Below, one piece after another: positions 2,536 through 31,124 of a stretch of DNA of 37,712 nt. The notes beneath the pieces were generated by a model. It was not told the DNA's origin. It worked only from the letters and a program-made list of their open reading frames with translations, and made no database searches. Location of the stretch: positions 1-37,712 of the forward strand of contig JAURQH010000002.1 of assembly GCA_030836185.1 (NCBI GenBank). Reading direction: 5' to 3'. The translations under genes and the position numbers were made by a program. Each line of letters starts with the position of its first letter. Position 1 is the stretch's first letter. The DNA is from Planctomycetota bacterium (GTDB taxonomy: Bacteria > Planctomycetota > Planctomycetia > Planctomycetales > Planctomycetaceae).

Positions 2536-2701
2536 AAGAGATTCCAGGAGTTGGGAGCAGATCACTCCCCGGCGACTCGCGACGGAATACCATCTCCCGA
2601 CGAAGCCTCCGGGTACTAAGAACCGAAGCTCGTTACTCGAAAAAGTATTTACTGACAAAAGAAGGGAGATAAAGTCAGTAGCAGAATGAGTTTAAGATTT
2701 T

Positions 2702-3283
2702 CTAAATTCGTCCCAGCTCTTCCTTGAGCCGACGTAAAATACGAAATTTTGCCTGCCGAACACCAACTTCGGTCAGCTTCAGATCTGAGGCAATTTCTGC
2801 AACGGGGTGATGATCTACGGCAAGACGCCAGAATGCCTGCCAGGTATGTTCTTCAAAATCACCACGGATTTGCTCGAGTGCTTGCCGTAAGAGAAATGCC
2901 TGGCTCTGCCGAGTGAGGGGGTGGTCCAGCTCTTCCGGTTCGGGGATACTTTGCAGAAAAGACTGAAAATCGCTACCACCGCGTGGAGTCCGATCAACCG
3001 AGGGTTTTCCCTCACGGTCTCGCACACAATTGCGTGTGATCGTCCATAACCAACCTCGAAAGCTTTGATGTTCGTATCGATTGATGGCCTTCAGGACAGA
3101 CTGAAACACTTCCTGGACGAGGTCGGAGGCATCTTCGGGAGAGAGACCAAATTGCCGACCCCAACAATAAACTAACCCTCCATAGATTTTCGTAAAGCGT
3201 TCCCAAGCTTGCGGATCAAACTGCTCCATCTGGCGCAGTAGACCTGTTGAAGTGGAAAATGGGGAGTGTGACGTAGTCGTCAT
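2702..3283 (-). CDS. ECF-like RNA polymerase sigma-70 family factor
   Basis: This 193-residue protein has a region-2 helix set (about 15-85) containing DLVQEVFQSVLKAI and the promoter-melting segment FRGWLWTITRN. A linker of about 40 residues leads to a region-4 helix-turn-helix (about 125-190) containing VAEIASDLKLTEVGVRQAKF. Region 1.1 and region 3 are absent, as in ECF sigma factors, and the layout matches the planctomycete-expanded group. The ATG at 3283 is preceded by AAGGA with 8-nt spacing; the frame is open further upstream but that part has no sigma homology. No anti-sigma factor is adjacent. The kinase downstream is the obvious candidate regulator, although that link is inferred from position only. 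Confidence 0.88.
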   Translation of the reverse strand: MTTTSHSPFSTSTGLLRQMEQFDPQAWERFTKIYGGLVYCWGRQFGLSPEDASDLVQEVFQSVLKAINRYEHQSFRGWLWTITRNCVRDREGKPSVDRTPRGGSDFQSFLQSIPEPEELDHPLTRQSQAFLLRQALEQIRGDFEEHTWQAFWRLAVDHHPVAEIASDLKLTEVGVRQAKFRILRRLKEELGRI

Positions 3284-27488: not shown

Positions 27489-28640
27489 ATGAATCATTCG
27501 CTGGTCTTCCAGAAATTTCGTGTTGCCGGAATCGTGATCGCCTTAATCGTGACTTCACTGTTAGGCTGGGAATTCCTGAGAAATCCCGATCATGCTGCCG
27601 AGGAAACGCCTGACGACTTTCAGACCACCGAGTCTCCGGCGGCACGAGATTGGCAATTATTTTTGAGCGATAATTTTGCCGGTGACGAAGCGTGTCAAGA
27701 ATGTCACGCGGAACAATTTGCCGCTCAACAACGGTCGGGACATTCGCGAACAATAACACCAATGTCACTCTCATCCCTCGCAGAACAACTCGAGGGAGAC
27801 GAGTACCAGGATCCCCGTCGCTCGCAGCAACTTCAGTTTGTGAAACAAAATGAGCAGTTTTTTGTTTCGACCGAAGATGACGGACGCGAAGTCAACTTTC
27901 CCGTGAGCTGGTTACTCGGTTCGGGCACGCATGCACAAACGCCGGTCTCCATCGATCCCGGTTCGGGTATGGGGGTCGAATTTCGTTGGACCTGGTTCGC
28001 TGGACGGAAAGAGATCGGGGTCACTCCCGATCATGAACGGTTCGACGATTATCAGCCGGGTTCGCTGGAATGTTTTGGACGCCCGCTGGGAAAAACACAG
28101 GCCCGTGCCTGTATGAACTGCCACGCTACAGCGGTCCCACCAGAAAACGTCCCGGCTTCTCTCGATCACTTCATGGCCAATGTTGGTTGCGAACGGTGTC
28201 ACGGACCTCGAAAAAATCATGTGAAATTGGCTCATCTGGGGCGAGCCGACGAAGCACCACCGGCATTCACATACGACGACCCGGCTGAGTACATGGATCG
28301 TTGTGCTCAATGCCATCGGGATGAGACCAACACGCCCTCCGAGAGCACACCGGGAGAGTTAGCCCGGTTCCAGCCGCTGAGAATGAAACAAAGTCGCTGC
28401 TATTTGGAAAGTCAAAAGACCATGACTTGCTCGACCTGCCACGATCCACACGACCGGGTGACCAATGACCGCAGTCATTATCAGAAATCTTGCCTGTCGT
28501 GTCATTCGGCTCCCGAGCAATCGCACTGCAAAGTTGAGCCTAGCGGAGATTGCGTGAAGTGTCATATGCCAGCGGTTGAATGGTATTCCGGCATCAAGTT
28601 TCACGACCATCGCATTCAAATTCCGCCGGGGGATAATTGA
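27489..28640 (+). CDS. Membrane-anchored heptahaem cytochrome c
   Basis: This 383-residue protein has one N-terminal membrane helix (about 12-30) followed by a periplasmic domain. The domain has seven canonical CXXCH haem sites, whose first Cys residues are at 69, 208, 234, 272, 314, 335 and 355. The first site, ACQECHAEQFAAQQRSGH, and the later clustered sites resemble cytochrome c554-like multihaem proteins. About 135 residues between sites 1 and 2 are haem-free and may form a partner or substrate domain. It should move electrons between quinol-side and periplasmic partners. The stop codon overlaps the ATG of the next gene (TGATG), so the two are translationally coupled. No known reductase subunit is adjacent. 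Confidence 0.92.
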   Translation: MNHSLVFQKFRVAGIVIALIVTSLLGWEFLRNPDHAAEETPDDFQTTESPAARDWQLFLSDNFAGDEACQECHAEQFAAQQRSGHSRTITPMSLSSLAEQLEGDEYQDPRRSQQLQFVKQNEQFFVSTEDDGREVNFPVSWLLGSGTHAQTPVSIDPGSGMGVEFRWTWFAGRKEIGVTPDHERFDDYQPGSLECFGRPLGKTQARACMNCHATAVPPENVPASLDHFMANVGCERCHGPRKNHVKLAHLGRADEAPPAFTYDDPAEYMDRCAQCHRDETNTPSESTPGELARFQPLRMKQSRCYLESQKTMTCSTCHDPHDRVTNDRSHYQKSCLSCHSAPEQSHCKVEPSGDCVKCHMPAVEWYSGIKFHDHRIQIPPGDN

Positions 28641-29671
28641 TGACCGTGACGGCACCACCGGAAAGACCAATCGGTACGAGTGAGAATTCTGGAACCGTTC
28701 CAGAGAGTTCAAATTCGGCGAAAGCACTTCACAATTCGTTCCTGCTTTCACCCGCCATCGATCTGTTTTTTATCATCAATCTGACTTGGCCATTCATCTT
28801 TCTGATCGATGCGGTTGGTGGAGAGACTGTCCATGGCAGCATGTTGTTCTGGCAAGTCTATTTTGTCACAGCCCCGCATCGCTGGATTACATTGTTCCTG
28901 GTGATGTTTGATCGACAACGAACTTCAGGACGAGAAAAATCGTTTCTCGTTATCGGTGGATTGATTGTTGCAGCCTGTTTGAGTCTGAAGCTCGGCACCA
29001 GTTCGTTGCTTTGCCTGGGAGTGATCGATTACTTGTGGAACGCCTGGCATTTTGCGTCTCAGCATCATGGCATCTTTCGACTCTATCAACGCAAAGCCCA
29101 CGTGAATCTGTCACCGACTTCGGCACTCGTGGAAAAATTTCTGTTTCGCGGATTCTTGCTGTATGTGATTGCCCGAGTTGCCGGTGTCGGCTGGGAATTC
29201 AGCGAGTATTCACCCGATTGGGATCTGTCTCAAGTTGATCCGGTGATGGCGGGAATTCGAACCCGCTTTGCGCGTTCCAGTTTACCCGGACTGATGTACT
29301 TCGCCAGTGTTAGCCTCATGTTCCTCAGCCTGCTATACGCAGCTCACCTCGAACGACGACAACTGGTCATTCAATTGTCTCTAGCCTCTGCCGTATTCCA
29401 TTCCATCGAGTACATGGCCATCGTCATGTGGTCCTCTACGACCCCCAAGTATCGAGAACGTCATGATGTTATGGGAAATCTTGCCCGCAGTTGGTTGAGC
29501 TTTCTGACCTTCTTCATTCTGTTTCTGGGAGTCACCAACTACCTGATCGCCGAGGGATACGAAGAGACCTGGATTCTCATCAACCTGATCGTCGCTTTTT
29601 TGCATTATGCCTTTGATGGCATGATCTGGAAATCACGAAAGAAGAAGAGAGCCGAGGGGCAACATGTCTGA
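28640..29671 (+). CDS. Polytopic membrane protein with intramembrane histidines, unknown function
   Basis: The protein has 343 residues. A hydrophilic N-terminus of about 35 residues precedes roughly nine transmembrane helices. Histidines fall inside or at the edge of four of them: APHRW (His 80), WNAWHFASQHHG (His 137, 142, 143), FHSIEY (His 254) and FLHYAFDGMIWK (His 322). That spacing is what one expects of a protein holding haem or metal within the membrane, but I cannot name a family with confidence. The ATG at 28640 shares one base with the stop of the cytochrome gene, and its own end overlaps the next start by 8 bp. It may be the membrane partner of the cytochrome. Confidence 0.85.
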   Translation: MTVTAPPERPIGTSENSGTVPESSNSAKALHNSFLLSPAIDLFFIINLTWPFIFLIDAVGGETVHGSMLFWQVYFVTAPHRWITLFLVMFDRQRTSGREKSFLVIGGLIVAACLSLKLGTSSLLCLGVIDYLWNAWHFASQHHGIFRLYQRKAHVNLSPTSALVEKFLFRGFLLYVIARVAGVGWEFSEYSPDWDLSQVDPVMAGIRTRFARSSLPGLMYFASVSLMFLSLLYAAHLERRQLVIQLSLASAVFHSIEYMAIVMWSSTTPKYRERHDVMGNLARSWLSFLTFFILFLGVTNYLIAEGYEETWILINLIVAFLHYAFDGMIWKSRKKKRAEGQHV

Positions 29672-30677
29672 AAATCAGTCGTTATCGCGTTTGCTGTTGT
29701 TGCTAACGGCGGGAAGTGGCCTGCTCACGGGATGGGCGTTACAGGCGGATGCCGAGTTTTGTCGGTCGGTTTTCGGACGCGCCGATTTACTCTGGATCAC
29801 AATCTTGTCGGTGGTTCCTTTTGGACTTTGGGTGAGCGCTGTCGTCAAACAACGAACGACCGTTCTCGGTTGGGTTGCCGGTTGTGGATTCTTGAGCGGT
29901 TTACTTTGGTTCCAACTGCTGACCACGACATCACAAGACCTTCCCTTCGCCGCGATCCTATTTGGGCATTCGGCAATACTTGCGATGATGACTGCCTTGC
30001 TGGTCTTGATACGCGGATCAATTTCAACCGCAGATAAACCGGCTCTTGTATCGGGTGTCGTCACGCTGATCATGGCAGTCGTCACACCGGTGGTTTATGC
30101 GAATCTGGTGGGCAATCAGTTGGAGAAATCTTTGGGAGAGGCGTTATCGGGACAACGCATCACGCGATCACTCGAACTGACTGAGTCTCTCCAGGCTGTT
30201 CGTCCCCAGATGACGGTCGGCGATCAATCGCTTACTCAACTCTCGAACGCGCTTTCTGAACAGCAAGCTCGCCTAAAACAGTTTTTGGCGTCAACAATTT
30301 CTGCCGGACAGCCCGGTCAACGCATCACTGCCCTGATGCAACTTGATCGCTACGAAGAGGCACTCGAGTTACTCCAACCGATGATCGACAATGTACAATC
30401 TTCATTCATTGCTCTGGATTATGCCGCGCTGTGCCATCAACGATTGAACAACTGGGAAGCAAGTCGGGATCTCTACGCGGCAGCCCGTGACTCCTGGAAG
30501 AATCAAGCGGAGAGCCCTCGTCGAACTGAGTCTCTCCTAAGCGCCTACCGGGGAATCGCCTTCGCTGAAAGGCAACTCGATCATCCTCAAGCGGCAACCC
30601 AACCAAGAAACGGTCCTTCCTCTGCATCTTCCTTTGCAGCCACCCACCCGGGAGGAAAGGTCTTATGGACATCATGA
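29664..30677 (+). CDS. Membrane protein with C-terminal TPR-like region; C-terminus altered by rearrangement
   Basis: The 337-residue product has about five transmembrane helices (residues 7-155), a helical linker, and then TPR-like helices (about 210-310; [14 protein letters not shown] and [18 protein letters not shown]). The last 26 residues, from TQPRN to the stop, do not look like TPR. They are encoded by DNA that on the other strand is the truncated DUF1559 gene, so the original C-terminus seems lost near base 30597. The start overlaps the end of the previous gene. It is the third gene of the cytochrome cassette and probably served assembly or docking. Function after truncation is uncertain. 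Confidence 0.78.
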
Positions 30678-30847
30678 TAGTTGTGCATCGCCAGCCCCAT
30701 TTGTTTCAGATGGTTCTTGCACTGATTCTTCCGTGCTTCTTCTTGCGCTTCGGCAACGGCAGGTAAGAAGAGAGCCAAAAGCACCGCTACCACGGCGGAA
30801 ATCACCAAGACTTCAACCAGAGTAAACCCTCGTCGTTGATTGCGCAT
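30587..30847 (-). pseudogene. Truncated DUF1559 prepilin-like gene
   Basis: Only 86 codons remain. The start [19 protein letters not shown] and the following helix match the DUF1559 N-terminus, as do [23 protein letters not shown]. The frame then stops right after GPFLGWVAA. Normal members run to about 300-400 residues and end with the H-X9-DG motif, which is missing. The ATG at 30847 has a GAGG site. The break coincides with the altered end of the plus-strand TPR gene, which points to one deletion or inversion event. Confidence 0.85.
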
Positions 30848-31124
30848 TTCTGAGACCTCATAGAGAGTGAGTATCGAGAGACGACATTCGGCGGTCGACC
30901 GAGCAGATATCTGTACATTACCAGTCGGCAAGGTATGAAACAAGAAAATCTTGTCCACTCCCTTTCGGTCGATGCCATTGAGAGTTCTCATCCACTTTGA
31001 AAAGACTTTTCTGTAGTGTGAACGGGGAATTGATTTCCTTTCCTTGGCACGCCATGATCAAATCTATCGAAATGATACCTCCCCAGTTTCGTCGTTCGAT
31101 CCGTTGACTCGAAAGTTGCATCAT

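Follow-up and report, generated by a model that had tools for sequence, protein, structure and literature searches.

A planctomycete family of membrane proteins with a conserved four-histidine site and a tetratricopeptide repeat partner

Three overlapping genes in a 37,712-nucleotide stretch of DNA from a Planctomycetota bacterium (contig JAURQH010000002.1 of assembly GCA_030836185.1; the whole stretch is called the window here) encode a seven-haem c-type cytochrome, a polytopic membrane protein with a buried poly-histidine site, and a protein of the tetratricopeptide repeat (TPR) type. Judged from its sequence, the membrane protein belongs to a large family that has no family name and to which no known family could be assigned. 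Its constant partner is the TPR protein, and the cytochrome is an optional addition in some clades. The conserved buried histidines and the conserved partner suggest an uncharacterised membrane metal- or haem-enzyme. The reading favoured here, with a probability of about 0.45, is that of an uncharacterised intramembrane metallo-oxidoreductase which together with a periplasmic TPR scaffold would make up a two-part core module.

The first-pass annotation of this DNA listed histidines at positions 80, 137, 142, 143, 254 and 322 of the membrane protein and expected them to hold a haem or metal within the membrane. All six are present. When 20 diverse members of the family are compared (16-39% identity to the window protein), H80, H137, H254 and H322 are kept in all of them, while H142 is found in only five and H143 in three. 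Nine columns are invariant in these members (D41, H80, H137, Q141, G144, Y149, H254, H322, and D326), and four of the nine are histidines, as against 12 histidines among the 343 residues of the protein (hypergeometric p = 1e-4). The pattern holds in a larger set of 94 distinct full-length domains, where D41, H80, H137, Q141, G144, H322, and D326 occur in every domain, H254 and W330 in 93, Y258 in 92, and Y149 in 91. These domains were picked at E 1e-10 and the source members of the profile carry the residues in question, a selection by which invariance was favoured, not forced. The only domain lacking H254 is that of locus L022, which reads DRKSVV ahead of the site. Positions 2687-2705 (reverse strand) of this locus, inside the membrane gene, differ at one of 19 bases from what we take to be a sequencing adapter, and since this adapter-like DNA lies at the site the exception is probably an artefact. 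Residue 257 is glutamate in six of the 20 diverse members and glutamine in most others, and the third motif reads HxxE/QY. Four essentially invariant histidines with a glutamine and an aspartate one turn away would point to a bound cofactor. The expectation of buried histidines is supported for four of the six positions.

Using the single window sequence as query, the membrane protein is found in 19 of 59 genomes. The same search gave 18 loci in public genomes, 17 of them with planctomycete titles and one from a metagenome-assembled genome (MAG) assigned to Acidimicrobiia. A 17-member profile reached distant members and found the protein in at least 31 of the 343 genomes sampled from the phylum; a 20-member profile found the superfamily in at least 126 of the 297 sampled from the class. 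No more than six candidates were scored in each genome for the two profile tallies, which are therefore lower bounds, and the genome of the window is counted in these two and in the single-sequence tally. That genome also encodes one of the distant members, on contig C26, a 699-residue paralogue (L132, 4785-6884, forward strand) that joins the membrane domain and TPR repeats in a single protein. The Acidimicrobiia locus, L049, is the single close homologue outside Planctomycetota, in a sampling that was systematic for Planctomycetota only, and its placement reflects either transfer or a binning error. The same-genus genome G002 gave no match to the membrane protein, and no homologues were found in viral contigs or in plasmids.

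Searches of the family databases gave no significant Pfam or NCBIfam match for the window membrane protein, the best Pfam hit being PF01312 at E 0.12. When the 20 diverse members were scanned, ten families of Pfam (E values up to 5, with HMMER filters that can drop weak matches) and a single one of NCBIfam were matched by one member each (best E 0.042 and 0.093). PDB sequences gave nothing against the family profile up to E 5, none of the three window proteins matched PHROGs at E 0.01, and a comparison of helices 1-4 with helices 7-10 gave no signal of an internal duplication.

The membrane protein is predicted to have ten helices with both termini inside, because the helices of the AlphaFold2 model and the positive-inside loop charges both fit this arrangement; this corrects the nine helices counted earlier. 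The model of the window protein has a mean predicted local distance difference test score (pLDDT) of 77.3 and a predicted template modelling score (pTM) of 0.75, and that of the homologue L046 has 73.6 and 0.72. Over 17 sequences the mean number of lysines and arginines is 1.8-4.2 in the inner loops and 0.5-1.1 in the outer loops, with helix limits set by hand from the AlphaFold2 model. Helix 6 (196-212) is hydrophobic in the homologues (mean 1.11) and only weakly so in the window copy (0.06). In the predicted topology the outer end of the helix is 10 residues away from H80 (helix 2) and 14 residues away from each of H137, H254, and H322 (helices 4, 8, and 10). These four helices run parallel to each other, and each thus carries one of the four histidines at a similar depth. 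Foldseek searches of the PDB with the two models, both of middling confidence, gave nothing below E 0.001 (best 0.33 and 0.17).

The order and spacing of the histidine motifs recall the Brp/Blh β-carotene 15,15'-dioxygenases (BCD; PF15461), which are also polytopic membrane proteins with an aspartate within a turn of some of the histidines. As a distant relative or analogue of these enzymes, the protein would use an intramembrane, histidine-bound iron to cleave an isoprenoid or lipid. The four histidines of the present family are spaced by 57, 117, and 68 residues and those of the BCD proteins by 53, 107, and 67, a likeness noticed post hoc; in seven BCD proteins the invariant histidines are H34, H87, H194, and H261. 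According to published work, the activity of Blh requires His21, His78, His188, and His192 (PMC9227343). Membership of the BCD/Blh group was not borne out when the two profiles were aligned with hhalign, which gave probabilities of 0.3% and 0.1% and no gain in global mode, the BCD profile being built from only seven sequences of which two are 91% alike. PF15461 matched none of the 20 diverse members at E values up to 5 and nothing in the genome of the window, and the BCD profile itself matched no solved structure. The motifs also differ, and the third BCD motif contains a second histidine (HxxxH) where the present family has its HxxE/QY. Seven helices are reported as predicted for BrpA (PMC4110020), as compared with ten predicted here, and the present family has a TPR partner. 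Because the profile comparison gives no support, the resemblance is at most an analogy, and we regard a Brp/Blh-like function as highly improbable.

The neighbourhood of the membrane gene was compared in a close-family set of 36 loci with profile matches of E 1e-40 or better, on which a tree was also built. Duplicate records of a locus (L017, L020, L039, L042, L044, L047, L051, and L052), the partial matches L055 and L056, and weaker or distant rows (L018, L019/L038, L021, L096, L132, L133, L135-L146, and others) were left out. The gene following the membrane gene is of the TPR type in 33 of the 36 loci. This count comprises 24 loci with a phmmer match to the window TPR protein (the window included), L161, whose phmmer match (E 0.00089) comes from a search of a smaller set, and eight found by Pfam at E 0.01 among ten further loci scanned, six of these over a cut-off. 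No TPR was found in L026 and L027, where a multi-helix open reading frame (ORF) comes next and the contig ends inside it, and L049 has neither a TPR nor a DUF1559 neighbour within the available stretch. In the superfamily, 19 of the 94 members extend at least 120 residues beyond the last motif, and all 14 of these that were scanned contain TPR (L132, L133, L136, L139, and ten more). As the two parts occur both split and fused, there is strong evidence, at the level of sequence, that the membrane protein and the TPR protein work together. The fused paralogue L132 has one extra hydrophobic stretch after the inner C-terminal end of the membrane domain, and the TPR repeats should therefore face the periplasm; the cytochrome and the exported DUF1559 protein encoded in the cluster should sit on this same, outer side.

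The TPR gene of the window is itself damaged. The earlier call of a membrane TPR gene running to 30677 was right as to type and wrong as to intactness. The ORF contains hydrophobic helices and its TPR matches are below the Pfam cut-offs (TPR_12 19.6 vs 30.1), but it is similar to the homologues in L022 (E 2.2e-38) and L134 (E 3.1e-38), the latter of which passes its cut-off (TPR_2 36.4 bits vs 27). The match to the L022 homologue ends at 30599, leaving 73 of the 400 L022 residues unmatched, and the end of the ORF (30599-30677) is antisense to a fragment of a DUF1559 gene (30587-30991, reverse strand). Of 24 TPR homologues, 21 have a C-terminal cysteine motif, a glycine, serine or alanine followed by cysteine within the last 30 residues (FGC in 12), as for instance in L022, L134, and L155-L160; the exceptions are L031, L037, and the window copy, which has lost the motif. 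A search through the rest of the window's genome did not recover the missing end; it gave two weak other matches, at E 4.2e-4 and E 0.005. The first, which was checked further, covers the missing region and was rejected because it lies in a 353-residue TPR ORF without the C-terminal motif. The breakpoint could reflect either a genuine rearrangement or a misassembly.

When it comes to the cytochrome, the first-pass annotation proposed that the three genes form a fixed redox unit, possibly an undescribed quinol-to-cytochrome module. The gene overlaps were confirmed on the DNA: TGATG at 28638-28642 is both the cytochrome stop and the membrane-protein start, and the membrane-protein and TPR ORFs share eight bases, the latter starting at 29664. 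The seven CXXCH motifs were likewise confirmed by count. A fixed cassette is, however, rejected by the gene neighbourhoods, in which the membrane protein is often seen without the cytochrome, an outcome that the first-pass annotation had named as refuting its proposal. Only seven of the 36 loci (the window, L022, L134, L155, L158, L159, and L160) encode the cytochrome no more than 7 kb from the membrane gene. The other 29 are cytochrome-free within this distance; both flanks extend for 5.7 kb or more in 18 of these, and 11 have less than 5 kb on one side, where absence is unsure. On the tree the seven loci require two changes and fall into two clades, the window with L022, L134, and L155 (support 99/96) and L158-L160 (100/100). 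Gene order in L155 is as in the window. In L158-L160 it is membrane protein, TPR, DUF1559, small protein, and cytochrome, and L156 and L157 are arranged likewise without the cytochrome. Genome G339 has one locus with the cytochrome and one without. The same-genus genome G001 keeps the two apart: the best homologue of the window cytochrome (68% identity) lies with a DUF1559 gene and the small protein on one contig, where the membrane gene does not adjoin them, and the cluster that holds the membrane gene is on another contig and lacks the cytochrome. A quinol-to-cytochrome module is thus not supported as a fixed entity.

The window cytochrome matches PF13435 (Cytochrome_C554) with 35.1 bits against a cut-off of 20.8, and it gives weak alignments to three solved chains, including MccA and cytochrome c554. 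It shares several CXXCH motifs with the c554 type and differs from it in having seven haems and in forming its own planctomycete subfamily, for which we know of no partner. Matches to the cytochrome family at large are found in 31 of 59 genomes, that of the window included. In four of 15 stretches around such matches (L097-L100) the cytochrome adjoins a protein of 716-778 residues with eight or nine hydrophobic stretches; Pfam gave no family for the two of these that were scanned. One of the four stretches, L100 (1705-5110, forward strand), is from contig C94 of the genome of the window, where a second seven-haem cytochrome overlaps a 778-residue protein with nine hydrophobic stretches and no Pfam family. 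A distant member of the membrane-protein superfamily, L096, also directly adjoins a seven-haem cytochrome.

NrfHA, Nap, Act, and alternative complex III likewise have a membrane protein encoded beside a multihaem cytochrome, and the earlier statement that the set matches none of these named complexes agrees with the Pfam, NCBIfam, PDB sequence, and Foldseek searches. No such model was found in the 20 diverse members, nor were NrfD, cytochrome b or similar quinol-reactive subunits among their Pfam and NCBIfam matches, and the cytochrome is optional here. Literature searches on planctomycete multihaem cytochromes and DUF1559, on histidine-containing membrane proteins with TPR, on heptahaem cytochromes, and on Blh returned no title or abstract opening that describes the set.

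The cytochrome does raise the alternative of a two-haem cytochrome b, where H80/H137 and H254/H322 would ligate the haems and quinol electrons would pass to the periplasmic seven-haem cytochrome. Within the two pairs, which sit on parallel helices, the histidines are separated by 57 and 68 residues, the cytochrome gene overlaps the membrane gene, and the linkage is seen in two groups on the tree; on the other hand it is absent within 7 kb in the 29 loci mentioned, and no cytochrome b or NrfD model is matched. A glutamine or aspartate one turn from histidine is unusual beside haem axial ligands, and both Q141 and D326 are invariant. As the four histidines lie at one depth in the predicted topology, a stacked trans-membrane haem pair would not be expected either, and the protein is unlikely to be such a cytochrome.

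In 32 of the 36 loci a DUF1559 gene is found no more than 7 kb from the membrane gene, the exceptions being L030, L049, L050, and L054, of which the last two are on contigs cut close to the gene. A phmmer homologue of the small protein is found near the membrane gene in 16 of the 36, the window included. The wider unit is composed of a DUF1559 pseudopilin, a small exported protein, the membrane protein, and the TPR protein. This association, and the G001 cytochrome found with DUF1559 and the small protein only, would fit a protein that assists or assembles the exported pseudopilin, not a redox enzyme, with the cytochrome as a passenger of the DUF1559 cluster. DUF1559 genes are, however, very numerous (68 paralogues are reported in Planctopirus limnophila; PMC10632474), one is found within 3 kb of just 43 of the 94 superfamily members, and the invariant histidines would be left unexplained. 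A role of this kind seems quite unlikely.

Among other neighbours, pairs of DUF1549-DUF1553 (PSCyt2-PSD1) and DUF1501 genes lie between the cytochrome and the membrane gene in L022 and L134, and the fused paralogue L132 is followed by a PSCyt1/DUF1549/DUF1553 protein and then a DUF1501-like one. Such a pair is not part of the window cluster, nor did one show up around the membrane gene in a set of eight loci; large two-haem ORFs next to L023 and L030 may be further DUF1549-DUF1553 cases. Nine of the 94 superfamily members, all distant ones (L223, L224, L225, L228-L232, and L237), cluster with proteins related to a flavin amine oxidase and to a spermidine-synthase-like membrane protein; Pfam found PF01593 in all three amine oxidases scanned and PF01564 in both synthase-like proteins scanned. 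The L236 member adjoins an ALO-type flavoprotein.

These associations also bear on whether the protein could be a transporter or receptor for metal, haem or a small molecule, in which the histidines would serve for transit or sensing and the TPR as scaffold. Its polytopic nature and buried polar residues would suit such a role, as would the fact that the scanned fusions carry only TPR and no catalytic domain. That redox enzymes are linked to it in unlike subfamilies speaks against transport, and a fixed H-Q-H-H-D set would be more typical of a bound cofactor; this alternative, too, we judge improbable.

In the favoured reading, that of a metallo-oxidoreductase, a single buried site made up of H80, H137, H254, and H322 together with Q141, D326, and D41 would hold the cofactor. 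The cofactor would most likely be a non-haem metal, metal being favoured over haem on account of the Q and D found one turn away from histidines. The TPR protein would be anchored in the membrane with periplasmic repeats that dock partners or substrate, and redox chemistry would be performed on a membrane-held or exported substrate. The electron partner may differ between lineages, being the periplasmic seven-haem cytochrome in the clade of the window and the flavin amine oxidase in a distant subfamily. The evidence for a redox role is only moderate because it rests on neighbours that change between subfamilies. Several observations weigh against it: a protein with at least three CXXCH motifs is encoded within 7 kb of just 11 of the 94 superfamily members, most members have no recognised redox neighbour, the other neighbours include ICMT-like, DUF6766, sulfatase-TPR, and phosphodiesterase-like proteins, and both AlphaFold2 models are only middling in confidence. 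More tentatively, the family could represent a new class of intramembrane metallo-oxidoreductases, recognisable by D, H, HxxxQ, H, and HxxxD distributed over five helices and by periplasmic TPR docking, with partners that vary by lineage. Such a class would often be present in more than one copy per genome and would be without any family name. The features of the window locus are collected in Table 1.

Table 1. Features of the locus in the window; counts refer to the 94 superfamily domains.
Feature	Position	Strand	Basis
DUF1559 pseudopilin-like exported protein, 375 aa	25845..26972	+	PF07596 E 1.3e-52 and N_methyl
Small protein, single N-terminal hydrophobic helix, 134 aa	27075..27479	+	Pfam: no significant family
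Seven-haem c-type cytochrome, N-terminal hydrophobic helix, 383 aa	27489..28640	+	Seven CXXCH; PF13435
Four-histidine membrane protein, ten predicted helices, 343 aa from ATG	28640..29671	+	AlphaFold2; no significant Pfam/NCBIfam/PDB match
Codon of D41, helix 1	28760..28762	+	94/94
Codon of H80, helix 2	28877..28879	+	94/94
Codon of H137, helix 4; Q141 one turn on	29048..29050	+	Both 94/94
Codon of H254, helix 8; E257 follows	29399..29401	+	93/94
Codon of H322, helix 10; D326 one turn on	29603..29605	+	Both 94/94
Membrane-anchored TPR protein, 3' truncated	29664..30599 (ORF to 30677)	+	Similarity to L022 and L134 homologues
Breakpoint fragment, N-terminal part of a further DUF1559 gene	30587..30991	-	PF07596 positions 3-54 of 268 only

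The family represents a clear gap in annotation: it has an essentially invariant four-histidine site, occurs in at least 126 of the 297 genomes sampled from the class, and matches nothing significantly in Pfam, NCBIfam or the PDB. Its invariant residues are ready targets for mutagenesis. Planctomycetes are known for their unusual membranes, and if a metal or haem is bound at the site, the protein would be an unrecognised membrane enzyme in these bacteria.

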